Positions 28,677 to 55,767 of a stretch of 64,000 nt of DNA are shown one piece after another. The stretch spans positions 243,535,474 through 243,599,473 of the forward strand of contig CP136065.1 in the NCBI GenBank assembly GCA_032622095.1, read 5' to 3'. Position 1 is the first letter of the stretch. Each line of letters opens with the position of its first letter. A program made the position numbers and the translations under genes. Source of the stretch: Siphonodentalium dalli (lineage: Eukaryota > Mollusca > Scaphopoda > Gadilida > Siphonodentaliidae). Below the pieces are notes generated by a model. The model worked only from the letters and a program-made list of their open reading frames with translations. It had not been told where the DNA came from and ran no database searches.

Positions 28677-29619
28677 TCTATACTATATATTTTGAGACTT
28701 CCGTATATATGTGTGTATATATATATGTGTGTGTGTACTTCATAGAATCCAAAACGCGTGTACAGATTGAGATCAAATTTCGTATGTAAGTGTAAAATCA
28801 CACCGACACCGCCGTAGATGTGTTTTCGAGAAGCTCTGAGCACCCTTTATCCACTCCCAGTCATCGAAATCAGCTCAAACGGCACGGCCGGGGTTAATAA
28901 CGTCATTATATATATATATGAAGTCAGAGTCTCCAAAGTTATACCGGAACAAACACGTGTTTACGTCGTCTTGGGGGTCCACGATGGGAGTCTGACTTCA
29001 ATGCAATGTTATCGCTCGAAACACGTGTTTACTTCGTGTTGAGGTTCACGATGGGAGTCTGACAATTGTTATCGCTCGAAATAGTACATTAGGACGGGAA
29101 CGGCTGGACAGATTGAGCTCAAACTTCCTATCTAAAGGTAAAATACCACGTACGATGTCGTCCACGCGTTTTCCAGAAGCTCCGAGCACCCGTACTCCAC
29201 TCCCAGTCATAAAAATCAGCTCAAACGGCATGGCCGGGGTTAATAACGTCATTATATATATATATATACGAAGTCAACGTTATTAGCATCTGCATTGAGT
29301 GCATTTCCTAGAACGCAACACGTGTTTTACGTCGTCTTGAGGTTCACGATGGGAGTCATTTCAATGCAATGTTATCGCTCGAAACACGTGTTTACTTCGT
29401 GTTGAGGTTCACGATGGGAGTCTGACATTTCAATGCAATGTTATCGCTCGAAATATTATGCAGAAAGGCAGATCTCGGAAACGGGTGGAGCTATCGACCT
29501 GAAATTTGCTATGTGAATGTATCTTGCACCGGGTACAAATTTTATCGGGTCGCCGAGTCCATGCGACGCCCGTGCAGCGCATGCGCAGACGAGATCTCGG
29601 AAACGGGTGGAGCTATCGA
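28677..29619 (+). mobile_element. Helitron-like unit 10, left part (split by Polinton)
   Basis: This unit is interrupted after TATCGA (29,614-29,619) by the Polinton. Its remaining 226 bp resume at 45,175-45,400. The two pieces add up to 1169 bp, exactly the length of the neighbouring units. Confidence 0.8.
29614..29619. repeat. Polinton target-site duplication, left (TATCGA)
   Basis: TATCGA directly precedes the element's TGATGATACAGGGCCC end and recurs directly after the other end at 45,169-45,174. Intact array units carry this hexamer once at the same place. Six-base duplications are typical of Polinton integration. Confidence 0.9.
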
Positions 29620-29757
29620 TGATGATACAGGGCCCAGTTGGTGCCATTTCAGGAACGATAACTCTATCTGACCTATATGCCGCAGTACTCCCGTCGGAGT
29701 TTGACCTATATTCTCCGCCCACGCGTCGGTCTATTATCCCCATTAGCATATTATTAT
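29620..29757 (+). repeat. Polinton left terminal inverted repeat
   Basis: It starts TGATGATACAGGGCCC and matches the reverse complement of 45,034-45,168 over about 135 bp with small differences, including ACGATAACTCTATCTG and GTCGGAGTTTGACCTATATT. In Polintons the termini are the probable protein-primed replication origins and integrase sites. Confidence 0.9.
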
Positions 29758-29880
29758 ACGGAAGGGATTTTTTTTGTCCGGACATGTTCAGACACGCATT
29801 CTCACGTCATATACTACGAGTCAATATCGATTTACTCTGTGTCCACTCGGTGATGTGCTTCTGTATAAATTATCGATTAA

Positions 29881-31010
29881 CTCTTTCACCCCCGCTGCCC
29901 GCTATAGCGGGCACGGCGTCATTTACGTTCTACCCCGCTGCCCGCTATAGCGGGCAGAAGCGTTCGCCTGTTTATCCGGTTTTTTAAAAACGAACCGTGT
30001 CACGGCTACATAACGTAATAGCTCCCACAATTCATATAGGTCCCGCTGGGGATCCCTCTATGTGTCCCTGCTATGTGTCCCTGCCATAGAAAACTAAAAT
30101 ATTATATCTGAATTACATTGGAAGCATGCCTGAATTTAAGCGGTCGGTCGGACACGGACATTTTCCGATACCTATCGCCAAATGTCCGACCATTTTCATT
30201 TTTAGCCTGACATTATATCCGGCAGTATATTTTTAAATAAAATCTCATATATTTGGCAAGAATGTTGTCTAAAGTGTTATAGTTGTGCGTATCATACACC
30301 TTTTACGCAGACAATCAGGCCTAATACCCCTGAAAACGAACGCAATATTGAAGCAGAAACCGCACACTCATTATACTGGAATTCCCAAAGTTATAAATAG
30401 ATAGTACCAAGGGAGTGAATTCAGTTTCGATTGATTTAGTTTTGAGGAAGTTTGTGTTCTAAGTTCGTCAATAAAAGGACTTCTAGTGTGTGAAGTTCAT
30501 TTGATTTTAGTGTGAGATATAATTAGATCGATTAGAGTGATTTTGGTCAATATAGTCAATTATTTATAAATCATTGAATGTGATCACTGGGTGATTTATT
30601 TTTGCATTGCCTATTTTCGTTTTTGGCTGATATTTTAAACAAGGTGAAATAACTGCTTCAAATTTGACCATATGGTGATCACCAGTGTGTGCACAATAAA
30701 TAAATAGCCAGCATTGTAGTCAGTGTATGAGTGCCATTCAGTAGCAAATTGATCAAAATCTTGTGTTTTCCAATGACCGGTGTTTCCATAGCAACCGTTG
30801 TCAAGGAAGTTCGGCACCCGAAGGTCATCTATGACCCTCATGTGAACATAAATTCACTGCTGATCACGGCAATATATGGTTTGCCATACCCACGATCCCT
30901 CTAAACATTAGTATTTAGGCTTAGCGCTAAAGACAACAACAAATCCTAATTAAGTCATGTAAACATGGGGTCTGGGGCATTTTACCCTCATATAGTCGTT
31001 GGTGAAAGAG
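29881..31010. mobile_element. Non-autonomous piggyBac-like element (1130 bp) nested in the Polinton
   Basis: The ends are CTCTTTCACC and its exact complement GGTGAAAGAG, flanked on both sides by TTAA (29,877-29,880 and 31,011-31,014), the piggyBac target duplication. Near the left end, two copies of the 16-bp palindrome GCCCGCTATAGCGGGC lie about 50 bp apart, like subterminal transposase sites. It has no transposase. A TATA-like TATAAATAG sits inside near 30,391. Confidence 0.7.
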
Positions 31011-31014
31011 TTAA

Positions 31015-31550
31015 AACGTGTCATGACACAGCCGCTTTCTGCAGGCCAGTCGATTCGCTATAACACGTTCAGACTCGATCCCCCATCTATAAATATATAA
31101 ACACGTACGGACATGTTTATTATATATAGCTTTTTTCGTCGACCCCCCTCAGGTATATAAACGGTCGTTTCTTGATGTGATATCATAGATGGCTCAATGA
31201 AAATAGATACGACGAGGGACGTTTGATATAATGTGAGTATAAGTATATATTCTATACAAAATTGTTTTGAAATATATCTCTGTCTATGGTGGTACATTGA
31301 TAAATTCGCAAATTTGCCAAGTAAACTTTATTTATAATCCCCAGCCTCATAAAATTAATATATACGAAATGTTTTAGTGTTTGCCGTAAAATTTGCGAGT
31401 GTATGAACGCACCCCCACGCATACAGTTATAAAATGCGTACATCAAATTATAGTGAATAAAATATATATGTATACTATACCCTTTTTTACACAGATTGGA
31501 ACGAAATCCGATAAAACATTAATCCGTTTAATAACTAATAATAAGGGGCG
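31015..31550. other. Polinton left-side DNA without a visible gene
   Basis: It is AT-rich. Short minus-strand frames (31,058-31,297; 31,252-31,446) show no domain or composition suggesting real genes. Nothing else is seen. Confidence 0.35.
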
Positions 31551-32190
31551 TTAATCCGTATTGTCCCCTTTCTTCTTCGGCGGCTCTACGTCATCGCTGT
31601 CCCACGTGCACGAAGTCATTGTCTTTTCCTCGTCGCCCAGCTCCCAATCGTCCCAATTACTCAAATCTTCCAAGTTCTTTGACTGGAAACAGAAGAAAAG
31701 ATGTTCGGATTAAAAAAAAAATATATTATACGGACACGAGTGATTAACGAAGGTGTGTCAATCTCGGGTTATCAATATGGTTCCTTACTATTTTAGGGGC
31801 CAGTAGTAAAAAATATAGGCTTTACATGAATATGTTATAAAAATCGTGTTCCAAGTAACTCGTCTTTCGTTTAGCCCACGGATGTAGTAAAGAGCGTTAT
31901 TAGTTACTGTTTTCCCGATATGAATAAAGAGCGTTTGGGGTTGTATAATTAAAAACCAATAAAATCGCACCGCTGACAGAATACGAGTATACTATATAAA
32001 TTGTTCGAATTCAAAAACAATACACAAAGAAATCCCCGGTTTCAACGAGTATGAATATTTCTCAAACGAACGCTACTATTGTCTCTAACTAAATATCATG
32101 TTCAATTTAAAATGAAATAAAAGTTATATTTATACATACCATTTCCATCGTGGGTGTCTCGCCGTCACTAAATGCGTTAGGTGTTTCCAT
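31551..32190 (-). CDS. Small spliced acidic protein of the Polinton (60 aa, two exons)
   Basis: The minus-strand ATG at 32,190 opens a 17-codon exon (32,190-32,140) that ends at a consensus donor GTATGT. A pyrimidine-rich acceptor ending CAG at 31,683 leads into a 44-codon exon (31,682-31,551) in the same phase, ending in TAA. Exon 2 is rich in Asp, Glu and Trp (DLSNWDDWELGDEEK) and finishes with a PPKKKG stretch resembling a nuclear signal. A TATA-like TATAATATAAGG lies about 35-45 bp before the ATG. The 456-bp intron is larger than those of the polymerase. No family is recognised. The reading rests on splice signals and composition. Confidence 0.45.
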
Positions 32191-32932
32191 GTCTGTAGTT
32201 TTATGTCAAGTGAAGAATTTCACCTTATATTATACCCAGTAACGAATCATCGCCACTATGCTTGACCGAAATTCACGTTACAGTATAATTACACCAGATG
32301 TTTCAACGTTCTGCCCATTTCCGTTCATTGGAATTAGCCGATACACTCGGAGTCATTTTCATTCCGCGACACGTGCGCAGCGGTGTATTAACAGCTAGTA
32401 TAGTTTGTAATGTAGTATAATTGGCTTATTAGCATACTGCCGGCCTGTCCTATAAAAGGGTAAATAACCGCCATGCTTAATTAAATAACGCATTAGTTGT
32501 GTGCGAACATAGTTGTCTACTTTTAAACTTGACAGATATAACACGGTTTTGAATATTTGTCAGTCAAATTCCTACGTCGCCCTATTATAAAGAGGGTCCA
32601 CGTTTCCGACCAATAAATTCACAATTTGGAGAATTTGTAATCTTTTTCGGCGATGTATCGTGTAAATGATAGTGATGGCCTACGGTACTCGTTCAGTTCT
32701 GAAATGAACTAAATTGTTTAAACAGTTCTTCGGGGTAATCTTTAAAATGAGTGTTCGCGAGTATATACATTATTTCCATGGGGGTAAAATAGAGGGATCC
32801 CGCTAATTGGCAAAATAAATTAAAAAACTTAATATCTCGTCTTAACCGACCACAAACGATAGTCCCCTTCTGTCTGAAAAATAATCTGAAAACGACTCGT
32901 CCGTACCTCTCTCCGCCTCGGAGATAGTAGAG
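32191..32932. other. Polinton spacer with a TATAAAAG box but no frame
   Basis: TATAAAAGGG at 32,451-32,460 (plus strand) looks like a core promoter, yet no open frame of note follows before 33.5 kb. It may drive a non-coding or highly spliced transcript, or be chance. The rest is unremarkable AT-rich DNA. Confidence 0.3.
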
Positions 32933-33252
32933 GAGCGGTCTTGACCAGAATTTTTTTTTAATTTTTTCTTTTACACACGGAAAAATTATATATCATATGA
33001 AAGTAGAAGATGTAGGCTTCATGTTCCGCCCTGCTGTAAAATGTGAAAGTGGTGCCGTTGCCATGGAAACAGAATGTAACCAATGTAGACACAGTTTGAT
33101 ATTAAACCATTTACGCAAATGGTAAAAACTAATTTAAGCCCATTCTAGGACAGGAACAGACGTTGAAGATAATTTATTGATGTATAATTTTTCCGTGTGT
33201 AAAGAAAAAAATTAAACTCGAAAAATAAGCCCCGTTTGGGCCAAGACCGCTC
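32933..33252. mobile_element. 320-bp inverted-repeat element nested in the Polinton
   Basis: Terminal GAGCGGTCTTG pairs with CAAGACCGCTC. An inner inverted repeat (TTTACACACGGAAAAATTAT against its complement near 33,185-33,210) makes the arms about 65-75 bp with gaps. No coding capacity is present. It is probably a MITE; the target duplication is unclear. Confidence 0.5.
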
Positions 33253-33569
33253 ATCTATAGGCTATTTTGAAATATCTATGACGTCATTAAAGCCGCACGT
33301 GCAGTGGACATAATATGCCTTATCTAGAGTTCTAGAAGTCGGATCTTGACGCGGTTTTCACCATGTAGGAAGGTTCGACGTCGCCGTCAATAAAATAAAT
33401 AAAAATAGAGATCTTTCGATAATTCACCGAAACATTTAAACATGAATAATCGTCGCACACACACACCCTCCCCCCAACGCGGGTATATGTCCGAAATAAT
33501 TGAGAATAACATGGTATAAGTTAATATTTTATTTACGATGAAAATAAGTATTCCTCACACGGTCAAAGT
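33253..33569. other. Polinton spacer downstream of the PC4-like gene
   Basis: AT-rich DNA with a CA/CCCC-rich patch near 33,455. No gene is visible. Minus-strand AATAAA signals for the PC4-like gene are possible in the TTTATT-rich stretch near 33,525. Confidence 0.35.
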
Positions 33570-34082
33570 TCAATAATCACGTTGAGTGTAAAATCCATAA
33601 CCTCCGGGATTGCATTCTGTACACGCTAACGCTTCCATCTGTCCATCGTGCGTTAAATAACAAGCTTTCACATTCTCTAATTCAGGTAAAACCTGATTAA
33701 CGGCGTCAATGTGTTGAAACAATATATCAAATTCCTGTTTGTTAATCGTACAGCCTTTCTTCGTGGGGTGCAAATGTTCAGAGTCCTTCGGTGTGAAATA
33801 CTGGCGTAAGTGTACTACACCATTATTATGGTCTAAAACCGCATGTAGATTGTGTCCCAGATGCACTTTATCCATAGGACTCCTGGATACTAAATGTTCG
33901 CCGATGGACTTTATATTTTCAGTCAGACATTGCCATCTTTGTAAGCTCATACGAGCCCCGAATGTCGTAGGGATTTTGCCTTCTTTCCATATTCGTAAGT
34001 CAACGTATTTCCGGTCCTCATATTCACCGACTGTGAGAAATCGGTCCCTCCTTAAATTTTTGACGAGAATCTTAGAATCCAT
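33570..34082 (-). CDS. Protein with two PC4-like (single-stranded DNA-binding) modules, 170 aa
   Basis: The protein contains two copies of a pattern seen in the C-terminal domain of transcription coactivator PC4/Sub1: a strand of the type [VI]xLR[IQ][WY], a Lys/Gly turn, then an amphipathic helix. Module 1 is at about residues 26-60 (KYVDLRIWKEGKIPTTFGA, then SLQRWQCLTENI). Module 2 is at about 80-130 (VVHLRQYF, TKKGCTINKQEFDILFQHI). PC4 family proteins bind single-stranded DNA and help form transcription preinitiation complexes. Here the protein could coat replicating DNA or aid transcription of the element. It is divergent from the polymerase gene, with TATAAAAAG at 34,146-34,138, about 56 bp before its ATG. 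The assignment rests on pattern, not a database search. Confidence 0.6.
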   Translation of the reverse strand: MDSKILVKNLRRDRFLTVGEYEDRKYVDLRIWKEGKIPTTFGARMSLQRWQCLTENIKSIGEHLVSRSPMDKVHLGHNLHAVLDHNNGVVHLRQYFTPKDSEHLHPTKKGCTINKQEFDILFQHIDAVNQVLPELENVKACYLTHDGQMEALACTECNPGGYGFYTQRDY

Positions 34083-34137
34083 GATCCTTTCTTAATGAAA
34101 ATTTAGCTGCGAATGAGCTAGTACCTCGAATCACCGT

Positions 34138-34146
34138 CTTTTTATA
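34138..34146 (-). promoter_or_regulatory. TATA box of the PC4-like gene
   Basis: TATAAAAAG on the minus strand lies about 56 bp upstream of the ATG at 34,082, a normal spacing for transcription start plus a short leader. Confidence 0.55.
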
Positions 34147-34232
34147 TGATGGGTGACGTTGAAAAAATGAAATTGACCAATCGAGTAGCGCCTACGGCGG
34201 AGCCATTAATAATTAATGCCCGCCCCTTTTTT

Positions 34233-34505
34233 GATCACAGGTCAATGAAATTTCGTAATCTCTATATATAGCTCTTACACGTCACGTGTTTCAAATAAAT
34301 GTATGACTCATGCGCTATAAATAGAAACCAATCATTAAGCACCGTGATTTCGAGTTGATGCTATAATGATCATAGGTCAATGAAATTTCGTAATGTCTAT
34401 ATATATAGCTCTTACACGTCACGTGTTTTTAAATAAATGGATGACTCATGCGCTATAAATAGCAACCAATCATTAAGCACCGTGATTTCGAGTTGCTATA
34501 AATAT
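34233..34505 (+). promoter_or_regulatory. Duplicated TATA-containing promoter cassette before the polymerase
   Basis: A 135-bp block (34,233-34,367) is repeated from 34,368. Each copy contains TCAATGAAATTTCGTAAT, TCTATATATAG, CACGTCACGTG, ATGACTCATGCG and CTATAAATAG (34,315-34,324 and 34,453-34,462). A further TATAAATAT at 34,497-34,505, degenerate in copy 1, lies 45 bp before the polymerase ATG. The cassette sits between two divergent genes and probably serves the polymerase operon. Confidence 0.6.
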
Positions 34506-34549
34506 GTTATATGGAACCTCTAGCTCATTAAAGTATTTGCTTTTTTCAG

Positions 34550-37500
34550 ATGGAGCGGTTAATCGATGAATTGCACGCCGAGGGATTTAGTAGCGATGAC
34601 TTTCTAAGAGGCATCACCGGGAGAGTGGACTCAATGTCCGATACAGACAGAAATACGTATGACAGATTGATATATCTGGAGGGTAGACAGCAGTCGCCCG
34701 ATAATGACGGGCCAAACCCCGCACCGTCTCAACCCCAGGACTCATCCCGAGCCGCTCACCAGTCATCCGCTCTAGATTTAAACGGACGGAATGAACCGCA
34801 GGAAGTTACTCTCGACACTAGTCACGATGAGCAAACGCAACAGACGGCTAATCAGTCCTACACGATCAATCTTCGTGAAATAAAATCATTCATGAGGTCA
34901 TCGGCTGTGGAAAGTATATACGACGTGAAATTTGATCATCAATGGCGCGGTGAACTGTTGTCAGACTTGACGGAACGACTTACCAACATGTTCGATCATA
35001 TACTAAGAACGACGAGAGGTGATTTGGCAGACAATGATCTGGGAAGAGTTATCCTTCATACCGATCAGCTGGATAAACCCATCATAGTACCGTTAACGGC
35101 ATGGGCGGACCTGAATTCTCAGTTGATTATCGACAAAATAGCTAATGTGCTCACATCGCACGAACATATTGACTTGGACCGATCATTTCGAATAACTGTA
35201 GGGTCACTGAGGCAACCCAGTGGCTCAGGCGGTGGAGTTCCTATCGACGGTGACAAATCACTTCTGGACAAAAAATCAACAGTCTTCATCCACAATACTG
35301 ACAACTCCTGTTTGCCTAGAGCTATAGGCGTCGCGATGGCCAGGATTGGTACAGTTTCCGAAGATCTTAAATCGTCTTATCCCGGATTATCACGGCTCGA
35401 AATTTTTCTAAAACACGGTAAAGTGACGAAAGACTATTATAAGCACCTAACAGCTAAAGGACGAAATGAACAAAAAGTGTTAGCAAACACCCTGCTTAAA
35501 AATTTATGTATTTCCGCCGACCGACCGGGATCATACGCCGACCTACCAAAGTATGAATCGTTCTTCAAGGTGAATATTATAATCATATGCGGCGAAATTG
35601 GAAAAAAAGTATCCAGAGTCAGCAACACCTATGACAGGAACATATATTTGTATCATAATTAGGACCACTACACACCGATAGTCAGCGTTTCAGGATTCTA
35701 CGGCCTATCTTACTTTTGTGAAATTTGTTTAAAGCCTTTCAAGGAGAAAGATAGACATAACTGCACGTCATATTGCATAGTATGCAAAACAGAGGGATGT
35801 TTGATTGACCCTTTATTAATGGGCAAGTTATTAACGTGCCACGATTGTAATATGGACTGTAGATCTTTGAACTGTTACCAGAGACACAAAGAGGCACCTG
35901 ATAATAAACTATCCAATTGTTGTAAATATTTGAAGTGTAGAGAGTGTGGAAGCGTAATGAATAGAGCGAAGAGGGATCTGACAGAAATACCCCACATTTG
36001 CGGAGAATGGTCGTGTTCATCTTGTAAGGAATGGGTACTTTCGGGTCACCTCTGTTATTTGCGACCTCCGAAACAGAAAGTGAAAGATGTCAACAAGTTC
36101 ATATTCTACGACTTTGAATGTTCACAAGATGAGGTGTACCTATGTGACGGTGGATACAAAATGGGACTCCCGTGCTCTACGTGCAGTGAAACGGAAAGAT
36201 GCAGTCAATGTCGCCGGTAAGTACATTATTTTATGTGGAACGAAAAATGTATTGTTGTACCCGCATCTCACCAACCCGCAGTAATCTAAACAAATTTGTT
36301 TCATTTTTTAGGTGCTCAAACTGTAAACGACCGGCCTGCGGATTAAATCGACATCAGCCCAATTTGGTGGTGGCCCAAACAGCCTGCGACTCTTGTTTGG
36401 ACTCGCCGGTGAACTCAGATTCGACTTGCGACGTTTGCGGTACTCGATGCGATCATTGCGGTAGCCTGGATAAAGAAGGCGATTACAAAAAGACACCGTG
36501 TAGCGACACGTGCGGGAGAAGACAGTACATAGCGTCTGGTTCGGACACTCTACTGAACTTCGGAACCTGGCTGTTTACTAAACACCATAAACACGCCACG
36601 GTATTGGCTCATAACAACAAGGCTTACGACGCTATATTGTTGCTGGAATACATGGTTTTCCAGGGGATGAGGCCTAGCAAAATTATTTATTCTGGATCGA
36701 AGGTCATGTACATGCTAGGTCACCATGGGATTCGAATAATAGATTCGCTAAATTTTCTGACGATGCGATTGGCTGCTCTCCCGAAGGCTTTCGATTTGAA
36801 GGAACTAAAAAAAGGTATACGCATTTCTTTTTTATATTTGTTTTTAAATATTAAATTTACACATTCTTAAAATTTTTATTTCAGGATATTTTCCCCCATT
36901 TCTTCAATAATATATATATATCGTTTCCATTTGTTTTTAAATATTAAATTTAAACATTTTATTTCAGGATATTTCCCTCATTTCTTCAATAGGAAGGAGA
37001 ACCGACTGTATGAGGGGCCGTATCCCGATTCAACGTATTACGGGGCTGACACCATGTCGACGACAGACAGGGAGGCGTTTCTACGTTGGCACGAAACTAA
37101 AGCCGGTGAAATCTTCAATTTAGAGAAAGAATTATTGGCTTACTGCATTTCTGACGTTGATATCTTGCGTCAGGCTTGTTTGAAGTTTCGGTCATTGTTT
37201 TTGAAAGTTACCGAGAATAAGGTAGATCCTTTCATGTCGATAACGATATCTTCTGCGTGCATGAAGGCCTATAAAATATTGTTCTTGGAAGAAACTTATT
37301 CTATAACTCTCACTAACTCTGATCAATCAGAAACCAGTTTGCTGAAGAAATTGAATGATAAAGAGCGAGTATTGCTCGGTGATGATTGGGTAGAACGGGA
37401 TACGGCCGAGGAGTCTGGAATTGAAATTACTGATGAAAAATTCATTAGTACGCCTATAGGCAAAGTTCCTAACGGGTTTTACGGTGACAAGGACCAATAT

Positions 37501-39920
37501 TCGAACGTCTCCATCCAATGGTTGTCCTGGTTGGCCCACAATAAAAATAGAGACATACAACACGCTTTGAACCGCGGTGAATTCAAGGTACCAAATTCAA
37601 AGTACAAGGTGGATGGATATTGTCAGGAGACCAACACCTGCTACGAATTTCACGGTGAGTACGACGTATAGTCATCTTAAAACATTTATCCCATCCCCCC
37701 TTAATTGTTCATATACAATAAATGGTATTTTTATTCTTTAGGTCGTTTTTATCACGCTCGTTTGACACGTTACCCCCGAAACAGACACATCTCCAGTACG
37801 ACATATAATCATTTTAAAACAGTTGTCCCATCCTCCCCTAATTGATCATATACAATAAACGGTATTTTTTCTTCTTTAGGTTGTTTTCATCACGCTTGTT
37901 TGACGTGTTACCCACGAAACAGACACATCTCCAAACACCCGCTGACTAAACAGACACTGAATCAACTGTACACACTGACCATCAAAAAGCGTGAATTTTT
38001 GAAGAAGGCGGGTTACAAATATGTATGCATTTGGGAGCATACATTCACTGAGCAGAAAAAAAATAATGAAATACTGCGGGACTTCTTGTCGCAGCTGGAT
38101 GTACAACCTCGACTTATGCCACGAGATGCTTTCTTCGGAGGTAAGTTTCCATATTTAAAAAAAAAAAAAATGAAGTTTATAAAATAAAAATAAATAAAAT
38201 TTATTTCTAAAAAAAAATCTTTTATCTTTTTAGGTAGGACAAATGCCTGCAAATTATACAAAGACGCGGGCCCCCGTGCGAGCATCAAATACGTCGATTT
38301 CACGTCCCTGTATCCTAATATAAATAAATCGGGCAAAATGCCAGTAGGGCATCCTGAAATAATAACTAAGGACTTTAAAGATATCAGCGCATATTTCGGG
38401 CTGGCTAAGGTGAAGGTTTCTCCTCCGAGGAAATTGTACCACCCCGTATTGCCATTGAGATCTCACGGAAAACTCACCTTTCCTTTGTGTCGATCATGCG
38501 CGGAAGATCAAAGACAAACGACGTGCGATCACGGAACCGATGCGAGATCTATAACAGGGACGTGGACGACGCCGGAGATAATGAAGGCCATAGAGAAGGG
38601 TTACGTGGTGACGAAAATATATGAAGTATATCACTGGACAGATACCACGCAATACAATCAGGCTACTAAGAAAGGTGGACTCTTCTCGGAATACGTCAAT
38701 TCGTAAGTATATTTTTTTAAACGAAAAGCGCCGCCGCCCCCTCCCCTCCCTTTTTTTGGTCGGGGGGTATCATTGAGTACGGGATGAAAAAAAACATTTT
38801 TATTTTTTGTTTTCAGCTTTCTCAAACTCAAACAAGAAGCTAGCGGTTGGCCAGCCTGGGTGAAAACTGCCGAGGACGAGTGCAGATATCTGAATGATTA
38901 CGAAAGGGTCGAGGGGATTCGTTTGGATCCCGAAAATGTAAAAAAACAGCCAGCACTCAGAGCCACTTCGAAACTCATGTTGAACGTTCTCTGGTAAGTA
39001 GTTATTTTTTTTTAGATAAATAATTTTAATTATTCGCATAAACTATATCGCATTACTAATTCATTCATCCATTACAGGGGAAAATTTGGAGAGAGACAGA
39101 ACATGACGCAGACGGAGATAATTCACGACAGTGAACCGAAGAAATTCTTCAGTTTGATTTCCGACCCAAAGAAGCTCGTGAAGGACTTCCACATTATCAA
39201 TGACAGCCACATTCAGTTATCCTACACCCACGACGACCATTTCCTACCCGATGAAAATAAGACTAATATATTTCTGGCCATATACACTACCTCCTGGGCT
39301 CGTCTCAAGTTGTATCATGTACTGGATCATCTAGGAGAAAATGTGCTGTATTTTGACACTGGTGAGTACTAATTTTATTTTGCGTACCAAATTATGCTCT
39401 AGCTTGATATTAGGTCCTCAAAATATTTTACATTTCTGTTTTAGATTCCATCATCTACGTACAAAAGACGGGAGGCCCCGACGTCAGCTGCGGTGATTTT
39501 CTCGGGGATCTGACCGATGAGTTAAAGGGGGACACTATCACACAATTCAGAAGCGCCGGACCGAAGAATTATGCTTACAGGACGACTGCCTGCGATGAGG
39601 TGTGCAAGGTGCGGGGCTTCAGTTTAAATTATATCAATTCTGAGGCCATTAATTTCAAGACTATGAGCACCCTGATTGATGGAAAGAGAAAGGCATTGGA
39701 CGACCCTGATGTTGTAGAGCCGAAGAGACGACATTTGGTAGATAAAGAGCGGGAAGGTGAATCCGGCGTACCCGACAAGGTGTTCATAACTGAAAAGAAG
39801 ATATGTAGAGGTAGTGCCCGTCCTATCCTATACAACAGAATTCAAAAGAAGGTATACAGAGTGGTATACACGAAGAGAGTGATACTAGAAAATATGGACA
39901 CTATCCCTTTCGGATATTGA
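34550..39920 (+). CDS. Protein-primed family-B DNA polymerase of the Polinton (8 exons, one in-frame TAG)
   Basis: It replicates the element from its termini. Exons by consensus GT/AG and continuous phase: 34,550-36,216; 36,312-36,814; 36,968-37,654; 37,880-38,140; 38,234-38,702; 38,817-38,993; 39,079-39,361; 39,445-39,920. In order there is a low-complexity N-terminus, an OTU-like block (NTDNSCLPRAIGV), a Cys-rich region with many CxxC pairs, Exo I (FYDFEC), Exo II (AHNNKAYDA), Exo III (YCISDVD), motif A (VDFTSLYPN), motif B (RATSKLMLNVLW) and motif C. Motif C is split by the last intron between its DT and DS. An in-frame TAG at 35,660-35,662 interrupts exon 1. Introns are 83-225 bp; two carry duplications. 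The stop makes full-length product doubtful unless it is read through or an assembly error. Confidence 0.85.
35660..35662 (+). other. In-frame TAG in polymerase exon 1
   Basis: The same frame stays open on both sides for hundreds of codons and the downstream part is needed for the exonuclease and polymerase domains. It therefore looks like a single nonsense change rather than a gene boundary. Confidence 0.8.
36836..36991 (+). repeat. Tandem duplication of intron 2 end and exon 3 start
   Basis: A segment beginning ATTTGTTTTTAAATATTAAA, including a splice acceptor and the first ~25 bp of exon 3, occurs at 36,836 and again at 36,929 (93-bp step). The upstream exon copy runs into a stop; the downstream acceptor (AG at 36,966-36,967) keeps the frame. 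Confidence 0.8.
37658..37931 (+). repeat. Tandem duplication of intron 3 and exon 4 start (137-bp step)
   Basis: Copy 1 (37,658-37,794) and copy 2 (37,795-37,931) each carry intron sequence, a TTCTTTAG acceptor and the first ~50 bp of exon 4. In copy 1 three Cys codons of copy 2 read as Arg (GRFYHARLTR against GCFHHACLTC), and copy 1 then runs into a stop. Copy 2 is probably the functional exon start. Confidence 0.8.
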
Positions 39921-39964
39921 GAGTAGTTTATAAGGAATATGTGACACGTTCGTTCGCCTTAGGC

Positions 39965-40615
39965 ATGTCATTAATACCGTTCTTACCGAATTCCAGCTAC
40001 GTGATCGCGGGTGCGACAAAGAGCGGGAAAACCAGATGGACTTTCCGCTTCTTACAAAATATAGAAGACATGATAGATGGCCCTCATCCCCAGAAATTTC
40101 TATACTGTTTCGGAGTGCATCAGGACTTATTCGATGAAATGGAAATAGCCATCCCACACATAAATTTCCACGAAGGTCTTCCCTCCAAAGAACTACTGAG
40201 TGAATTTGCGGACGGTACGACGGCTATGATAATTCTGGATGATTTGGCTCACAAAGTTTTGGACAATTCCGATATGGAATGTTTATTCACACAAGGCTGC
40301 CATCATAAGAACTTATCAGTTATATTTTTAACTCAAAACTTGTTCCAAAAAGGTAAACACGCCAGAACTATAGCTTTGAATACTTCCTATACCATTCTTT
40401 TGAAAAGCGTGCGTGATGCGAATCAAATAAAATATTTAGGTCAACAGCTGTTTCCGGGAAAATCACGTTTTCTGACTGATTGTTATAAGGATGCGGTGTT
40501 GGACAGACCCTATGGATATCTCATAATCGACGCTACGCCTAATACTGATTCAGAGTTTCGTGTAAGAACTGACACCTTTCCCGGTGAATATCCTATAATA
40601 TACAAATCTTTATAA
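39965..40615 (+). CDS. Polinton DNA-packaging ATPase (HerA/FtsK-type), 216 aa
   Basis: It is predicted to drive genome packaging into capsids. Walker A is AGATKSGKTRW at about residues 13-23 and Walker B is AMIILDDLA near 95-103. A glutamine-containing sensor stretch (IFLTQNLFQKGKHARTI) follows, as in other Polinton and adenovirus-like packaging ATPases. The first ATG in frame is 39,965, 44 bp after the polymerase stop. Only 2 bp separate its stop from the next gene. The frame is intact. A diverged homologue is at 53,959-54,609. Confidence 0.88.
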   Translation: MSLIPFLPNSSYVIAGATKSGKTRWTFRFLQNIEDMIDGPHPQKFLYCFGVHQDLFDEMEIAIPHINFHEGLPSKELLSEFADGTTAMIILDDLAHKVLDNSDMECLFTQGCHHKNLSVIFLTQNLFQKGKHARTIALNTSYTILLKSVRDANQIKYLGQQLFPGKSRFLTDCYKDAVLDRPYGYLIIDATPNTDSEFRVRTDTFPGEYPIIYKSL

Positions 40616-40617
40616 GG

Positions 40618-40923
40618 ATGAGTGCCAGGATCTCTAGAAATGCAGCGTTCTTGTCACTACTCGCATCCTGTTCTAGGAAGCAGTTAATATCTCTGTTGAA
40701 GACGGCTACTACGGACCAGATAAACGCATTATCGGAAATATGTTTGAATGTGTTGCAGGGTGTTTTGACTGTTACGAATATACAAACATTAGTGCCTTAC
40801 AAGAAGTTTTATAGACTCTTGGCTGACGAGAAATATAGCGTGCTTAGGAAGAGACAAAATTTGCTTAAAAATTTGAAAGCAGTGCCTCTGTTACTCAAGG
40901 ACGTACCGATTGAACATTTATAA
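40618..40923 (+). CDS. Small helical protein next to the ATPase, 101 aa
   Basis: A predominantly helical, Leu/Lys-rich protein (LKTATTDQINALSEICLNVL; KFYRLLADEKYSVLRKRQNL). Its position directly after the ATPase and its basic mid-segment match the ORF at 54,644-55,141 in the second Polinton-like fragment (FFQRNKNVLKKISD, then RKLILQRGG), so it is a conserved element gene. In related elements such small proteins are suspected virion or core components, but no function can be read from the sequence. It overlaps the next ATG by one base. Confidence 0.65.
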   Translation: MSARISRNAAFLSLLASCSRKQLISLLKTATTDQINALSEICLNVLQGVLTVTNIQTLVPYKKFYRLLADEKYSVLRKRQNLLKNLKAVPLLLKDVPIEHL

Positions 40924-41123
40924 TGTCGACATATTCAAAAAATGTGGTCATACCTTATGACAAATATGAACGTTTACTGAAAAATACCATCAAGAAAACG
41001 GCTGTAAAGACTCAATCACCTACAACGTCCTCAGCAATTCGGAAACCATCGATGATGAAGAAGATAGATAAACCACCGGGGGAAAGATTATTGAATAAGA
41101 AATGGATAACTATGTCAAAATAA
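40923..41123 (+). CDS. Small basic protein, 66 aa
   Basis: It begins MSTYSKNVVIPYDKYERLL and continues as a Lys/Pro-rich basic tail. The ATG overlaps the previous stop (TAATG). A polyadenylation signal AATAAA (41,119-41,124) overlaps its own stop codon, marking the end of the rightward gene group. The PYDKYERLL block looks conserved, but I can give no function; a nucleic-acid or capsid-associated role is only a guess from its charge. Confidence 0.6.
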   Translation: MSTYSKNVVIPYDKYERLLKNTIKKTAVKTQSPTTSSAIRKPSMMKKIDKPPGERLLNKKWITMSK

Positions 41124-41230
41124 AACTTATATTTGTATTATAATCCAATGTTGTTGTTTTTCTATACCTTCGGTGGGGGATCCCTGAAATAACGAGACGA
41201 AACTTATGTTTTATTTTCAAAAAATTTATT
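41119..41230. terminator. Convergent polyadenylation signals
   Basis: AATAAA on the plus strand at 41,119-41,124 ends the polymerase-side transcripts. On the minus strand AATAAA occurs at 41,230-41,225 and 41,215-41,210, just past the capsid gene stop at 41,259. The two gene sets meet here. Confidence 0.7.
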
Positions 41231-41258
41231 TTCAACACTAATAATATACACAAAAATA

Positions 41259-42503
41259 TTAGTTGGCAGATGACACATTGCGAGCCTCGTTTATGCTGAA
41301 GTATGATGGAAAAGTCCCGTATACCAATAACACTATAGTCTGCGGCAATGCTTCTGTGAACTTAATATCCATTTGCGCCAATCCCTTGACCACCGGTTGT
41401 CCGTCTTCGATAGATCCAGTCGGGTCAATACAGTAAATAGCATAACCACCGTCAAAATCCTCTCGTGATATGGACGTTCCGGGATACGCTCGTACCAAGT
41501 TACTGTAAGCTTCGAGATAATCTTCCTTCCCGTAATTCATGCTCAGTGGTCGGCTAGGTAATGACTGTCCATTCACTGTGAAAGCCACGCTACTGCAATT
41601 GAAATGTTGAAAGTTCAGTGGATTTTTCTTGTAATTTCCATTAAATCCCGCAGCATCAATCATAACCGCTATGATACGCCGAGGTATATCTCCTTGAAAC
41701 AAGTCAGTGGCTGTGAAATTGAAAGACCCTTTGGCGATAGAGAAAGCCTTCACTGCGGATCTCAGGTAGGGATAAATGGCATCAGATTTTTTCAACCGTT
41801 CTTCGATTTCGTTGGTAACACTAGGAATCATTTTGCAAAAGCAAACTCTGATACTAGCACCGGTTATTTTAACTTTGTAATTTTCATTCTCTTCGCCATT
41901 CATTAGTGCGAAAGCATTCTTCACGGGCCATAATTTAATGCGGACGGGCACACCGTTGATAATATATCTATCCTGTTGGCACAGATCATGTAGTATCGGT
42001 CCGGAAACTTTTATTTCTTTGCTTTCCGCAGTGAGCTTCACTCTTTCATAAAAACCTAGATTGCCTCCGATGGGTGTTGTATCGTCGAATTCGTTGGGCG
42101 TGTCTTTGTACCACATCCGCTGTTGTAGACCATTGTTGATAGCATTTTCATCCGCGCTCAATAGCATGTCCAGATAAGACTTGTAAGGATAAAACGGCCC
42201 TAATGTTGATAACGTAGTTTGCTGAAGCTCGATGTCAACTGACGAGAACAATGAGTGGACTGGTGCGTTAATAATTCCTACTTTTGAAGTTTTTTTCAAA
42301 GCGCTTCCATCACCTTTCACAATTTTCAAAGTCAAGTTTAGAAAACTGTTTCGAAAATCAATATATTTCTGAGACGTCGATGGTACGTTGAACTCTATAG
42401 GAGCACCGTCTACTATCTGGTTAACGGGGTTGTATTCCATCCATTCCCTTTGCATAACTTCCGGCCTTTCAGTAGCCTTCGAAAATGTAGGTAAGTTACT
42501 CAT
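41259..42503 (-). CDS. Polinton major capsid protein (double jelly-roll), 414 aa
   Basis: The sequence has the features of the Polinton major capsid family: an N-terminal strand set (IEFNVPSTSQKYIDFRNSFL), a VHSLFSSVDIEL block, a YPYKSYLDMLL helix, a second jelly-roll beginning near residue 250 with IPRRIIAVMIDAAGFNG, NPLNFQHFNC, and the C-terminal QTIVLLVYGTFPSYF. Length is normal for the family. It would form trimeric capsomers of an icosahedral particle. The frame is intact. Its ATG overlaps the stop of the small basic gene by 4 bp. It is last in the leftward cluster and is followed by polyadenylation signals. Confidence 0.85.
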   Translation of the reverse strand: MSNLPTFSKATERPEVMQREWMEYNPVNQIVDGAPIEFNVPSTSQKYIDFRNSFLNLTLKIVKGDGSALKKTSKVGIINAPVHSLFSSVDIELQQTTLSTLGPFYPYKSYLDMLLSADENAINNGLQQRMWYKDTPNEFDDTTPIGGNLGFYERVKLTAESKEIKVSGPILHDLCQQDRYIINGVPVRIKLWPVKNAFALMNGEENENYKVKITGASIRVCFCKMIPSVTNEIEERLKKSDAIYPYLRSAVKAFSIAKGSFNFTATDLFQGDIPRRIIAVMIDAAGFNGNYKKNPLNFQHFNCSSVAFTVNGQSLPSRPLSMNYGKEDYLEAYSNLVRAYPGTSISREDFDGGYAIYCIDPTGSIEDGQPVVKGLAQMDIKFTEALPQTIVLLVYGTFPSYFSINEARNVSSAN

Positions 42504-42721
42504 TTTGGTGAGGAGAATATGTCGTTTGCGGGTTCCGTTTTAACTTTTCCAATGTTTGTCTTCTTCGCTTTTCCTGCTTTTATCTTTTTAACTTTTATCT
42601 TCTTAGCTGCGGCTTTCCTTATAAGTTTTTCAGGTTTCGCTTCAGTCTCGGGTAGGTACTTCGAGTCATCATAGGGTACATATTTTTTAAGATCAAAGTC
42701 ATAATAGTACGGAGTCCCCAT
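42500..42721 (-). CDS. Small Lys-rich protein (core/DNA-condensing candidate), 73 aa
   Basis: The N-terminus is Tyr-rich (PYYYDFDLKKYVPYDD) and the rest is very basic (KKIKVKKIKAGKAKKTNIGK), a composition fitting DNA condensation inside a particle. It lies between the penton-like and major capsid genes and overlaps both (23 bp and 4 bp). No enzyme motif. The role is inferred from charge and position only. Confidence 0.6.
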   Translation of the reverse strand: MGTPYYYDFDLKKYVPYDDSKYLPETEAKPEKLIRKAAAKKIKVKKIKAGKAKKTNIGKVKTEPANDIFSSPK

Positions 42722-43109
42722 TATGGCTAAAGTTCAACGTGTACTCTGAAGTAGTAATTTTTATAGGCGCCAAATTACCATCCAAGACGTATACCCTTAT
42801 AAACTGCGGGTCAGTCCTAGTAACGCGCACGTCATGACTCTTACCGTACTTATAAGTTGATTTACTGCCTCTATAAATAACTCTTAGTACGGGTGCCATT
42901 TTATTATAAACGAATGAATGTTCGCATACGTCACAACATACGTACATAACGTCATGCGGGTCCTCGGGTTTTATAGAAAATTGTTCCAGGCAACACGTCC
43001 ATCGTGAATCTAGTAACCAATCAGCGGGTAGTGGCGTTGTGAAATCACCCGCTTCATTTCCGGGAAAAGAATCGTCACTATGACGGCTAGATAAGTATAA
43101 TCTCATCAC
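42699..43109 (-). CDS. Penton-like minor capsid protein (single jelly-roll), 136 aa
   Basis: The start (LYLSSRHSDDSFPGNEAGDF, then TTPLP) and the following Trp/Glu block (LDSRWTCCLEQFSI) match the pattern of Polinton minor capsid proteins, which form a single jelly-roll at fivefold vertices. CCDVC near residue 60 may bind metal. At 136 aa it is short for the family, so one or more strands may be reduced or the real gene could be spliced. It overlaps the integrase stop by 4 bp. Confidence 0.6.
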   Translation of the reverse strand: MMRLYLSSRHSDDSFPGNEAGDFTTPLPADWLLDSRWTCCLEQFSIKPEDPHDVMYVCCDVCEHSFVYNKMAPVLRVIYRGSKSTYKYGKSHDVRVTRTDPQFIRVYVLDGNLAPIKITTSEYTLNFSHNGDSVLL

Positions 43110-44179
43110 TTTCCGTATTTCACTAGATCAGTTCTCAATATCCAAGAGTCGTATTTAGAACCCCAATTCAGCCAACGAACTAAAACTGTGTTCCCGCTCC
43201 TTTTTAGTATTTTCTCGATTCTGTAAACTGCATCAGGGTCCACTTTAATTGCTTGTAATTCTTGCGCGTAAAATGAGCCTGTGACTTCTTCCTCGTCCCA
43301 ATCTTTCAACTTGTAAACGTTCACACCTCCTCTTCTATATCGCAGTACCACCGTGAAAATTTCACCCGTCCACTTCTTATAAAATTCTTTGTCATAAACT
43401 CCTTTGATGTGTGATATCCTCACTCTGTCACCGACCTTGAACTCGTACTTTTTTAATTTGACACTACCCTCTCGAAGAAGTAGTTTCTGTTGATAGCGCA
43501 CCTCAGATTCGTTGCCTTTATTAACTGACGTCGGTGTGTAACCGGTGGAACGGTGTACCGTGTTATTGTAGCTTTCCACAATATCCTGCAATACACTGGA
43601 ATATTCTTGAATACTATTGTGAACGAGATATCTATATAACCTCGTCTTCAGGGTCTTTATTAATCTCTCCGCGTAATTGGCTTTAGTTTCATTTTCGGTC
43701 GACAGGTATTTGATTCCTTCCCGCTTGAATAACCTCTGAACGGGTCTTGAATTAAAGTCCGTCCCCTTGTCCGTTCTCAGTATGGATGGTCTACGTGTTT
43801 CGTGAAGAAACACATCTTCGAAAGCTTCACTTACGTGTTTCGCATCTTTCTTTATCAAGGCACGACACCAAGCGTATCTTGAAAATACATCGATTATAAC
43901 CAAAATGTATTTATAACGACTTCCTGAAGCAGTCAAGTCTGCCAAATCACAGTCCCACAACGAGTCTAAGCCTTCAACCACGACTCTACTTCTAGGAAAT
44001 TTGTGTCTAGATGGTTTAATTAGCGTATAGGTCTCTTGAGAACTGAACCAATCTCGAATTTTCTTCCTGCTGATAACGTGTGATCCTTCAGCTTTAACAG
44101 CCTGATATAGTTTTTCAACTCCTCCGAAACTACCTGGTTTACTAGGGTCATAATACAGAGAATGTAGATATTCATCCAT
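43106..44179 (-). CDS. Polinton integrase (DDE type) with C-terminal chromodomain, 357 aa
   Basis: It catalyses insertion with 6-bp target duplication. The catalytic triad is visible in WDCDLADL (first Asp), LRTDKGTDFN (second Asp) and KANYAERLIKTLK (Glu), spaced as in retroviral-type integrases. A YNNTVHRSTGYTP block follows. The C-terminus (from about residue 315, YRIEKILKRSGNTVLVRWLN) has the chromodomain pattern, which can steer integration to marked chromatin. The frame is intact. Its ATG overlaps the stop of the TBP-like gene by 8 bp, so the two were probably expressed from one leftward transcript. Confidence 0.88.
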   Translation of the reverse strand: MDEYLHSLYYDPSKPGSFGGVEKLYQAVKAEGSHVISRKKIRDWFSSQETYTLIKPSRHKFPRSRVVVEGLDSLWDCDLADLTASGSRYKYILVIIDVFSRYAWCRALIKKDAKHVSEAFEDVFLHETRRPSILRTDKGTDFNSRPVQRLFKREGIKYLSTENETKANYAERLIKTLKTRLYRYLVHNSIQEYSSVLQDIVESYNNTVHRSTGYTPTSVNKGNESEVRYQQKLLLREGSVKLKKYEFKVGDRVRISHIKGVYDKEFYKKWTGEIFTVVLRYRRGGVNVYKLKDWDEEEVTGSFYAQELQAIKVDPDAVYRIEKILKRSGNTVLVRWLNWGSKYDSWILRTDLVKYGK

Positions 44180-44683
44180 TACTGCAGATTTCGAGTTCTA
44201 GAATTTTCGGTAGCACCTCACGTACGATCTGTCGTTGATTCTTTATACCCGTTATTAAAATAGATCCACTCAGGTGACAAGCGAAGTGGATACCCTCAGT
44301 GTAGAATGTCACAGCAGGAAAAATTTCTGGATAATAGTTACCACCGAGATATTCGACCAATAACCTTAATGATAATGGGCTGCATTTATGAACGGCTGAC
44401 ATGGTAATTATACGAACTCTGGACAGGCATACTGGGTATCCGATCTTTTGAATTATTCTGGCATACTTTCGCAGTCTTCGATTCCATCTTCCGCGTGACT
44501 AGCGGCTCCCGCACACATAAGTTTACCCGTCTTATAGAGCCAGCATGATCCGCCTATAGAACGATTCCTCCAAATTAAGAAACCCCTCTTACATACGACG
44601 TTACGTAGTGCATTAGCCAAATATATCACATCCACAGGACATCCTAACTGACTGGAACATACTACATTAGTTACGCGTACCAT
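44172..44683 (-). pseudogene. TATA-binding-protein-like gene (two TBP repeats, one frameshift)
   Basis: Two adjacent minus-strand frames cover the two halves of a TBP core fold. The first (44,683-44,453) has VTNVVCSSQLGCPVDVIYL, a GFLIWR strand and TGKLMCAGA. The second (open from about 44,486, ATG at 44,402, to 44,172) has RKYARIIQKIG, YYPEIFPAV and LSGSILITGI. Together they cover about 170 residues, close to the ~180 of a TBP core. The halves are joined by a frameshift within about 30 bp near 44,455-44,487 and no slippery heptamer is obvious. Of the four DNA-intercalating Phe positions, two look retained and two changed (Tyr, His), by eye. TATAAAAGG lies 36 bp before the ATG. TBP binds TATA boxes to start transcription. 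A TBP-like gene in a Polinton is unexpected. Confidence 0.75.
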
Positions 44684-44710
44684 AGTGACAACATTATGAT
44701 ATACACATTA

Positions 44711-44719
44711 CCTTTTATA
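44711..44719 (-). promoter_or_regulatory. TATA box of the TBP-like/integrase gene group
   Basis: TATAAAAGG on the minus strand lies about 36 bp upstream of the first ATG (44,683). Transcription would begin almost at the start codon, giving a very short leader. Confidence 0.6.
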
Positions 44720-44945
44720 CCACGACGCTTCTTCTATTTATAGTAGGGGCCGGAAGCAGGTACCCAACAGACGAACTTAATAGACTCGTCCATAATGTCG
44801 AGGCCTCGTGACCTATTGACAAATTAACGATAGATGTGATTACTATCGTATAAATAATAATAATTTGACAGAAATATACAATCTCGGATCTAGGTACTTT
44901 CTGGCCGAGCCAATACCACTTTTCTGAAGAACCGTCACTCTCCAT
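44715..44945 (-). CDS. Two-membrane-segment small protein, 76 aa
   Basis: After a polar start (KWYWLGQKVPRSEI) comes a strong hydrophobic segment (YFCQIIIIYTIVITSIV, about residues 25-42) and a second weaker one (LWTSLLSSSVGYLLPAP, residues 51-67), so a hairpin membrane protein is likely. It is the outermost gene, 89 bp from the right inverted repeat, and its 3' end overlaps the TATA box of the TBP-like gene. A role in particle or host-membrane interaction is possible; the sequence does not decide it. Confidence 0.65.
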   Translation of the reverse strand: MESDGSSEKWYWLGQKVPRSEIVYFCQIIIIYTIVITSIVNLSIGHEASTLWTSLLSSSVGYLLPAPTINRRSVVV

Positions 44946-45033
44946 AATAAATTATTATAAAATAGTACATTCAAAACCCTTATAACGATATCACGTGACA
45001 TAGATAATACACTGATATATACACCGTATCTAA

Positions 45034-45168
45034 ATAATAATATGCTAATGAGGATCATAGACCGACGCGTGGGCGGAGAATATAGGTCAAACTCCGACGG
45101 TAGTACTGCATATAGGTCGGATAGAGTTATCGTTCCTGATTTGCAACCAAACGGGCCCTGTATCATCA
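45034..45168 (-). repeat. Polinton right terminal inverted repeat
   Basis: It ends GGGCCCTGTATCATCA and is the inverted counterpart of 29,620-29,757, about 135 bp with a few mismatches and small gaps. Confidence 0.9.
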
Positions 45169-45174
45169 TATCGA
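45169..45174. repeat. Polinton target-site duplication, right (TATCGA)
   Basis: It is identical to 29,614-29,619 and is followed by CTTGAAATTTGC exactly as in uninterrupted array units. Confidence 0.9.
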
Positions 45175-45400
45175 CTTGAAATTTGCTATGTGAATGTATC
45201 TTGCGCCGGGTACAAATTTTATCGGGTCGCCGAGTCCGTGCGACGCCAGCTTCGCGCATGCGCAGACCAGATCTCGGAAACGGGTGGAGCTACCGGGTAC
45301 AAATTTTTCTTATTGAAACGCGTGGAGCTAAAAATTAAAAACAAATATTAAAAAAATGTCATGTTTCGGACAAGCCGCCGGTGGCGGGCTAACCTGCTAG
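45175..45400 (+). mobile_element. Helitron-like unit 10, right part
   Basis: This is the 3' remainder of the interrupted unit, with the last internal repeat, hairpin and CTAG (45,397-45,400). It closes the array. Confidence 0.8.
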
Positions 45401-47918: not shown

Positions 47919-48056
47919 GAGATCGAGATTGCTCAGTCACTCATTGCAAAAAGAAGATAAAACTAGGGAGATCGAGATTGCTCAGTCACCCTAAAACAGA
48001 GTGAAAGACGGGATAAATTAGGGAGATCGAGATTGCTCAGTCACCCTAAAAATACA
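47919..48056 (+). repeat. Three direct repeats between the SGNH ORF and ORF1
   Basis: GAGATCGAGATTGCTCAGTCAC occurs at about 47,921, 47,970 and 48,025 (steps of 49 and 55 bp), each followed by related spacer. They fill the whole gap between the two ORFs, as if part of a promoter or internal start region. Confidence 0.75.
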
Positions 48057-48061
48057 AGAAA

Positions 48062-48928
48062 ATGGCAGAAAAAGAAGAAACAAAGGAAAATGAGGACACA
48101 TCCACACCAATAAAATGTGGCAGTTGCAACAAACAAGTCAACGAAAAGGATCAAGCGCTGGCGTGTCTGCTGTGTGACTTCTGGTTCCATGCAAAATGTC
48201 AGAAAGTACAGAAGAATGTATATACATTCTTGCAAGAACAGAGCAGTGAAGACTCTGCAATCCATTGGTACTGTAAGAGCTGTAATATGGGCACAACAAA
48301 AATCCTAGGGAAACTAGTAAAAATGGAAGCCAGGCAAGATAAAATGGACTCAGATATCACACAGTTGAAAAAGAAAGTGGGTGATCTGGAGGAGTGTACA
48401 AACGCCCCAACACTAGACACAGAGAAGAACATAAATGAATTGACGAAGAGAGTCGAAGACATGGAAAAGAAAAAGAATGCATCAGCACAAATACCAGTTA
48501 AACAAATAGAAGGAGAACTCAAAGAGATGAAGAAGAGAGTTGTTGATCTAGAGAGTGGCAGGAATTCACCAGATCTTCAGGCTGACACTGAAGTTATGGA
48601 ATTAAGAAGGAGAGTCGATGAAATGGAGCAAGATGGAAGACCTGCTGGAATCACAGAAAATAAAGATATTCAAGGGGAGGTAATGAAGGTGTTCACTGAA
48701 CAGAAGAAACAAGAGGCAATAGATAACGGAAGAAAGAAAAATGTAATTGCTTTCAACATTCCCGAACCAAAGCAGGAAGAAGGGAAAGATAGGAAGGATA
48801 AAGACACACAAATATTCAATGATCTATGCAGTAAACTTGGAGTAGAAGGGCATAAAGACACACACGTGAAAAATGTCATTAGACTTGGAAGAAGATCAGA
48901 GAAGGAAAATGAGCCCAGACCTCTTTAA
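48062..48928 (+). CDS. Retrotransposon ORF1: PHD finger and coiled coil
   Basis: A PHD-type zinc finger occupies about residues 18-75 (CGSCNKQVNEKDQALACLLC, FWFHAKC, WYCKSC). A long Lys/Glu-rich coiled coil with three KKRV-type heptad blocks (to about residue 200) follows, then an RRM-like segment (VIAFNIPEPKQEE). TAA at 48,926-48,928 interrupts the frame inside the conserved RLGRR...RPL region, and the same frame continues. PHD fingers in CR1 ORF1 proteins probably guide RNA-protein particles to chromatin. Confidence 0.75.
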   Translation: MAEKEETKENEDTSTPIKCGSCNKQVNEKDQALACLLCDFWFHAKCQKVQKNVYTFLQEQSSEDSAIHWYCKSCNMGTTKILGKLVKMEARQDKMDSDITQLKKKVGDLEECTNAPTLDTEKNINELTKRVEDMEKKKNASAQIPVKQIEGELKEMKKRVVDLESGRNSPDLQADTEVMELRRRVDEMEQDGRPAGITENKDIQGEVMKVFTEQKKQEAIDNGRKKNVIAFNIPEPKQEEGKDRKDKDTQIFNDLCSKLGVEGHKDTHVKNVIRLGRRSEKENEPRPL

Positions 48929-53925: not shown

Positions 53926-53958
53926 GTTCACTCTCTGATTAGACATCAAAGTGACAAC

Positions 53959-55552: not shown

Positions 55553-55767
55553 TAATGCTACAAATTTCCCCGTCAGAACATAGTCGGGGAGCCAATAAGG
55601 TCCACGTGCACCCCCCCCCCCCGATGATTACAAATAACCTTATTTTTATTGTTCCCTATGGTATCCAGATAAAGAATCCGGATTTCACCGAAACATAAAG
55701 GTGGCCCCACTAGGTGCTAGAGCCATTTGAATCCAAGATGGCCGCCATTTCCTCTAATTCCGACCAG

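Follow-up and report, generated by a model that had tools for sequence, protein, structure and literature searches.

A divergent TATA-binding protein gene kept by selection in a clade of animal Polintons that also encode a double-PC4 protein

Introduction

Does a TATA-binding protein (TBP) gene found inside a Polinton belong to the element, and what might it do there? All eukaryotes and archaea use TBP to initiate transcription, and many DNA viruses of eukaryotes are often traced to a root near the Polintons. The question is raised by a stretch of 64,000 nucleotides from the scaphopod Siphonodentalium dalli (contig CP136065.1, positions 243,535,474 to 243,599,473 of the forward strand; hereafter the window, in whose numbering all coordinates are given). 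A preliminary description, made from the sequence alone, had noticed TBP-like blocks in two adjacent minus-strand frames within a Polinton, and had proposed a captured or ancient TBP serving the element's own promoters.

Results

A broken TBP gene in the window

The two frames lie where they had been placed, at 44453-44683 and 44172-44402 of the minus strand with 76 codons apiece, and both repeats match TBP. The first frame (44453..44683) carries the first repeat (Pfam family PF00352, 33.8 bits, E=3.2e-8; 20/62 residues identical to human TBP) and lies above the curated PF00352 cut-off of 22.9 bits, whereas the second (44172..44498, minus strand), carrying the inter-repeat helix and the second repeat (21.3-21.4 bits, E=2.3e-4; 26/84 identical to human TBP), falls just under it; the profile check thus bears out the first half and leaves the second marginally short. 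The second frame is open across 108 codons (44175-44498) and matches human TBP over this length at E=1.2e-6; the helix described earlier is present in it, upstream of the frame's first ATG. The two halves align colinearly with human TBP (chain residues 8-72, then 77-165), and the gap between the two matches is 14 nt, so that an intron is excluded and a single gene with a frame break is indicated. Among the 69 frames of the element (stop-to-stop, at least 55 codons), TBP matches at E<=0.01 are confined to these two. AlphaFold models of the two frames from single sequences, with a mean pLDDT of 40.6 and 43.0, were too uncertain to speak for or against the saddle fold.

The frame break is damage to the window copy by one lesion: in 28 of the 30 opened copies of the window's own family (family A, window included) a single open frame spans both halves, immediately upstream of the integrase gene. 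The ~43 nt shared by the two frames are free of stops, as a programmed ribosomal frameshift would allow; the overlap contains no slippery heptamer, and with a single continuous frame in those 28 copies we rejected this explanation, whose probability is negligible. The preliminary description had the TBP blocks right but missed both the damage and a partner gene of the PC4 family.

Intact copies in two Polinton families

A search of the 2.23-Gb assembly (nine contigs) with the window integrase gave 115 listed matches from 3416 candidates, ~60 of them with an identity of at least 90%; further integrase subfamilies among the matches listed ranged from 76 down to 47% identity. We opened the 30 family-A loci and 20 loci of other subfamilies. 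The two family-A exceptions to the single open frame were the window copy and L118; L077, counted among the 28, was without the N-terminal part. The preliminary description had suggested seeking the gene upstream of the integrase in other Polintons, and in this same genome it was found there at 19/19 loci with 55-76% integrase identity. At these loci the halves share one frame in 17 and are full-length (165 codons or more) in 14 (L084 with an altered end). At L098 (47% integrase identity) no TBP was found upstream of the integrase, as would be expected of a gene order like that of the second family described below. Five intact loci, from family A and four subfamilies, scored 47-67 bits against PF00352, all above the cut-off.

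A TBP profile search of the genome, with 150 of 600 candidates scored, revealed one host TBP exon (L001; 56/61 residues identical to human TBP) and 149 other rows at 63.3-68.5 bits; a 185-codon frame was listed for 138 of these 150, in two cases interrupted by a single stop. The 149-row set is a second, divergent Polinton family, named B. At L002-L008 a PC4 gene was followed by a 174-codon TBP and then a protease in 7/7, and the neighbouring pieces of L002 and L003 contained DNA polymerase B (PolB) to one side and capsid-like, integrase and ATPase genes to the other. Pfam analysis of these seven loci covered L002, where the TBP matched PF00352 over both repeats (112 bits, E=1.3e-32) and the protease matched Peptidase_C5 at 20.0 bits, just below the 21.3 cut-off. 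The family-B integrase matched rve (6.4e-15) with a chromodomain (5.5e-8), and the family-B PolB matched PF03175. The family-B TBP is not beside the integrase, which lies some genes away, and begins 11 nt after a double-PC4 gene. Of 62 family-B loci counted (opened row L013 omitted; 86 of the 149 rows unopened), 54 were full-length and 8 broken. The 53 copies of 174 codons differed on average at 3.6 of 522 sites, indicating that the family-B burst is young.

Descent and selection

Families A and B are far apart, sharing 45% identity in the integrase, 52% in the ATPase, 40 and 33% in the capsid genes, 43-49% in PolB and 31% in PC4. For TBP the values are 30% (first half) and 47% (second frame), and TBP has diverged about as far as the other genes of the element. 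Gene order differs, with TBP before the integrase in A and after PC4 in B, and both genes are retained. Six of ten planned representatives entered a selection test (the start pattern missed four subfamilies). In 15/15 pairs synonymous change was saturated (pS 0.76-0.86; dS not computable for this reason) and nonsynonymous change was limited (pN 0.22-0.43), from which it follows that the gene has been kept by selection. Family-B copies among themselves had a mean pN/pS of 1.1, i.e. were unconstrained (39 full-length of 42); the absence of constraint there is explained by the young burst, and the selection claim rests on the comparison between lineages.

A 16-row maximum-likelihood tree set 14 Polinton TBPs apart from human and microsporidian TBP, the only two cellular sequences included, with support 100/100 under a midpoint root. 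Against TBPs in the Protein Data Bank (PDB), Polinton TBP reached E=1.2e-24, and eukaryotic TBPs scored higher (79-90 bits) than archaeal ones (53-66 bits). The family-B TBP is identical to human TBP at 51/154 positions, as against 56/61 for the host TBP exon. This difference and the separate grouping support an ancient Polinton TBP, one of the two origins offered in the preliminary description, over a recent capture. A functionless passenger, i.e. a piece of host TBP picked up by accident, might be read from the broken window copy and from the unconstrained family-B copies; the gene is intact in most opened copies of two families, and the contrast between lineages of saturated synonymous with limited nonsynonymous change, together with the tree, makes a passenger very improbable. 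The intact family copies, the subfamily loci, the second family and the selection signal show that the divergent TBP is a genuine gene of the Polinton clade, inherited with the element and under purifying selection.

Confirmed relatives were not found in IMG/VR for the TBP halves, integrase, capsid protein, PC4, family-B TBP, or the alignments of ATPase A2 and capsid A4. In a collection of 5.8 billion proteins the TBP frames had no match and the capsid protein had 12 relatives; in a phage collection the capsid protein had no match.

A double-PC4 gene accompanies TBP

PC4 is a coactivator family whose members bind single-stranded DNA. The window element encodes a protein of this family (transcriptional coactivator p15; 33570..34091, minus strand) with two domains, matching PF02229 at 47.5 bits (E=1.2e-12; curated cut-off 25 bits). 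The separate halves scored 24.0 and 26.5 bits, and the family-B protein scored 55.1 bits. A single-sequence search of the PDB with the window protein found no PC4 chain among 11 other matches (best E=0.54). The PF02229 domain is shared with PC4/p15 coactivators, and the Polinton protein differs in joining two domains in one chain. The pair of TBP and double PC4 is common to families A and B.

Promoters and functional residues

Our preferred reading, to which we give a probability of about 0.6, is that this Polinton clade carries a divergent, selection-kept TBP and a double PC4 that would steer host RNA polymerase II towards the element's own core promoters. In the window, TATAAAA/T occurs 36-64 nt ahead of PC4, PolB and TBP. 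A TATAAATAG box lies at 44734..44742 (minus strand), 59 nt before the TBP start codon, and a second box, TATAAAA, lies 36 nt ahead of it. The TATAAATAG motif occurs four times in the window, always within the element (two occurrences in one tandem duplication), against an expectation of 1.16 for the whole window; 3/100 shuffles reach the observed count. We infer that the TBP may serve the element's own promoters, as had been proposed, conserved TATA boxes having been found in part, and the sequences suggest that these elements could help to start transcription of their own genes.

Several observations weigh against this reading. TATAWAW lies within 150 nt upstream of just 4/10 window genes (TBP, PolB, PC4 and a 73-aa gene; background 0.15-0.19). 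It precedes TBP at 8/22 loci, 5/19 in the subfamilies (background 0.13; at three broken loci in this count the start used is internal). In family B, none was found within 150 nt ahead of PC4 or TBP, and TATAAATAG was not found in the five stretches scanned. A threonine occupies, in 9/9 aligned Polinton TBP rows, the position where two cellular TBPs have the second-repeat asparagine, so that classical TATA binding is not assured; the threonine may point to a different target sequence. The codon usage of the two TBP frames was not distinguishable from noncoding sequence (0.037 and 0.032 vs a mean of 0.028 bits/codon). The PC4 protein, for its part, could instead be a single-strand-binding protein of replication. 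As a promoter shared by the elements, TATAAATAG was not borne out in family B.

At the positions that we take to be the intercalating ones, the aligned family-B TBP keeps all four phenylalanines and family A has F, Y, F and H; at the presumed TFIIB contact, family B keeps E-E-L and family A has Y-E-I. The changed DNA-facing residues, the TFIIB surface better kept in family B, and the lack of a conserved TATA box upstream of most element genes are what one would expect if the protein acted on the host, taking the place of the host's TBP at TFIIB or another partner, or competing with it there, and so dampening or redirecting host transcription. TBP, PolB and PC4 lead transcription units with a TATA-like box at 36-64 nt in the window (the ATPase has none), and the company of PC4 fits promoter use; we consider a host-acting protein unlikely.

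Slightly less probable still is a role outside transcription, in which the protein would bend DNA while the element is replicated, packaged or integrated, for instance by holding the terminal repeats or guiding the integrase. The TBP gene stands directly before the integrase in family A and at all 19 of the subfamily loci, with the TBP stop overlapping the integrase start codon by 8 nt in the window copy, and single-stranded DNA binding by PC4 would suit strand-displacement replication. In family B, though, the TBP adjoins PC4 away from the integrase, and the integrase neighbourhood is therefore not constant.

The element and its surroundings

The Polinton (15,549 bp) occupies 29620..45168. 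It has the rve integrase, PolB of the organellar/viral type (PF03175) and packaging ATPase expected of its kind, together with capsid-like genes; terminal repeats and target duplication were assessed on the window element. The terminal inverted repeats (~137 bp each; left 29620..29757, plus strand; right 45034..45168, minus strand) pair with 90.6% identity over 139 aligned positions, and are flanked by the 6-bp target-site duplication TATCGA (29614..29619 and 45169..45174), recognised by comparing the flanks with a host satellite. Minus one TATCGA copy, the joined flanks equal the satellite at 296/296 bases, indicating insertion into the satellite array. The satellite has ~122-bp units, with copies 1040-1217 bp apart at 17900-29618 and 45175-45295, the insertion site of the Polinton.

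On the minus strand the order is TBP, integrase, a 136-aa gene, the 73-aa gene and a capsid-like gene, with successive end overlaps of 8, 1, 23 and 4 nt; these five genes (41259-44683) resemble a polycistronic unit, in an animal genome. The integrase (43106..44179, minus strand) matches the rve core (PF00665, E=5.8e-11) and weakly a chromodomain (E=0.025). The 136-aa gene (42699..43109, minus strand; first ATG at 43106) has a 146-aa relative in family B (33% identity, E=1e-22) and by its position is a probable minor capsid protein gene; the 73-aa gene (42500..42721, minus strand) is an open frame overlapping both neighbours. The candidate major capsid protein (41259..42503, minus strand) had no Pfam match and belongs to an 'F54H12.2-like' family, with 12 homologues at 26-37% identity, one of which is named, in Mytilus trossulus; the family-B counterpart is 40% identical, and a double jelly-roll capsid role of the window protein is presumed.

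The plus strand carries PolB and the ATPase, and the PC4 gene is oriented away from PolB. The PolB gene (34550..39917, plus strand) is in pieces, with PF03175 matched in three frames (best E=5.3e-12), and is split by candidate GT-AG introns with six GTRAGT donors and pyrimidine-rich acceptors; it has a single in-frame stop at 35660-35662. Splice-like introns suggest transcription in the nucleus, by the host's RNA polymerase II. The ATPase (39917..40615, plus strand) matches Pox_A32 weakly (E=0.0088), and is 52% identical to that of family B and 34% to an ATPase copy at 53959. The latter (53926-54609, plus strand; Pox_A32 E=9.9e-9) is a second Polinton-type packaging ATPase outside the element, perhaps the remnant of another family. 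No convincing adenovirus-type protease was found in the window by tblastn with the family-B protease (best E=1.7); this is a loss or gap of one gene and does not outweigh the Polinton assignment. At E<=0.01, Pfam recognised five families in the 69 frames of the element: PolB in three frames, TBP in two, and PC4, the integrase core and a helix-turn-helix model in one each. None of them is an RNA polymerase family. About 3.8 kb (29758-33569) contains no recognised gene.

Among the matches listed, eight family-A integrase pairs are convergent, with ~3-14 kb between partners. In four pairs that we opened (L119-L122), inverted arms of the late end of the element lie between the integrases, 98.6-100% identical and some of unequal length; are they products of fold-back replication? 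Elsewhere in the window, large nested inverted repeats lie at 55611-60860 (arms up to 648 nt, 98% complementary), and long plus-strand frames at 8688-13515 and 48050-52045 resemble, as judged by eye, non-LTR retrotransposons (endonuclease, reverse transcriptase).

Discussion

The window element shares with the Polinton/Maverick of vertebrates, as far as the consulted parts of PMC8097293 describe it, the integrase, PolB, ATPase, capsid-like genes, inverted repeats and 6-bp target duplication, and differs in its TBP, double PC4 and splice-like PolB introns, intact vertebrate Mavericks being reported there as intronless. A protease, present in family B, was not found in the window copy. The protein shares with cellular TBP the two repeats, the inter-repeat helix and most signature blocks, but is ~33% identical to human TBP, has a shorter second repeat and is without an N-terminal extension.

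TBP genes are described for other eukaryotic DNA viruses in the portions consulted of three papers: in 59% of mirusvirus genomes (PMC10132985), in mirusvirus-like elements of Cymbomonas (PMC10675990), and, with RNA polymerase subunits, in Bodo saltans virus (PMC5871332). The Polinton is likened to mirusviruses and Bodo saltans virus by description only, these having large genomes and the Polinton 15.5 kb. The preliminary description knew of no Polinton with a TBP, and our literature search, with subscription journals largely outside it, agreed, finding none described with TBP or PC4. In the parts consulted, PMC10675990, PMC10132985 and PMC7786948 (a review of transposons) name both 'TATA-binding protein' and 'Polinton' and describe no Polinton TBP, and a term search of the surveys PMC11071308 and PMC11071296 gave no TATA or TBP in the text covered. 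The whole words 'polinton' and 'PC4' (plural not covered) never occurred together in a paper searched, nor did 'TATA-box binding protein' with 'Maverick element'.

In the preferred reading, that the pair steers host RNA polymerase II, the mRNA for the TBP and PC4 proteins would be transcribed by the host in the nucleus and in part spliced. The Polinton TBP would bend the minor groove at A/T-rich core promoters of the element and recruit host TFIIB and RNA polymerase II to them, and the PC4 protein would support initiation by holding melted DNA, so that the element might promote its own genes with no need of a polymerase gene. A more far-reaching version, which we put forward tentatively and below even odds, extends this to a whole clade of animal Polintons: a TBP altered in its DNA-facing residues and a two-domain PC4 would form an orthogonal promoter-recognition pair redirecting host RNA polymerase II to promoters specific to the element, a viral initiation kit pared down so far that it lacks a polymerase, older than the split of families that share only 45% integrase identity.

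If true, a small integrating virus-like element that keeps its own TBP and PC4 across many lineages would show that general transcription factors can travel with no RNA polymerase beside them. How these elements evade control by the host, whether viral TBPs have a single origin, and whether a divergent TBP can establish a promoter code of its own in the nucleus of an animal become testable.
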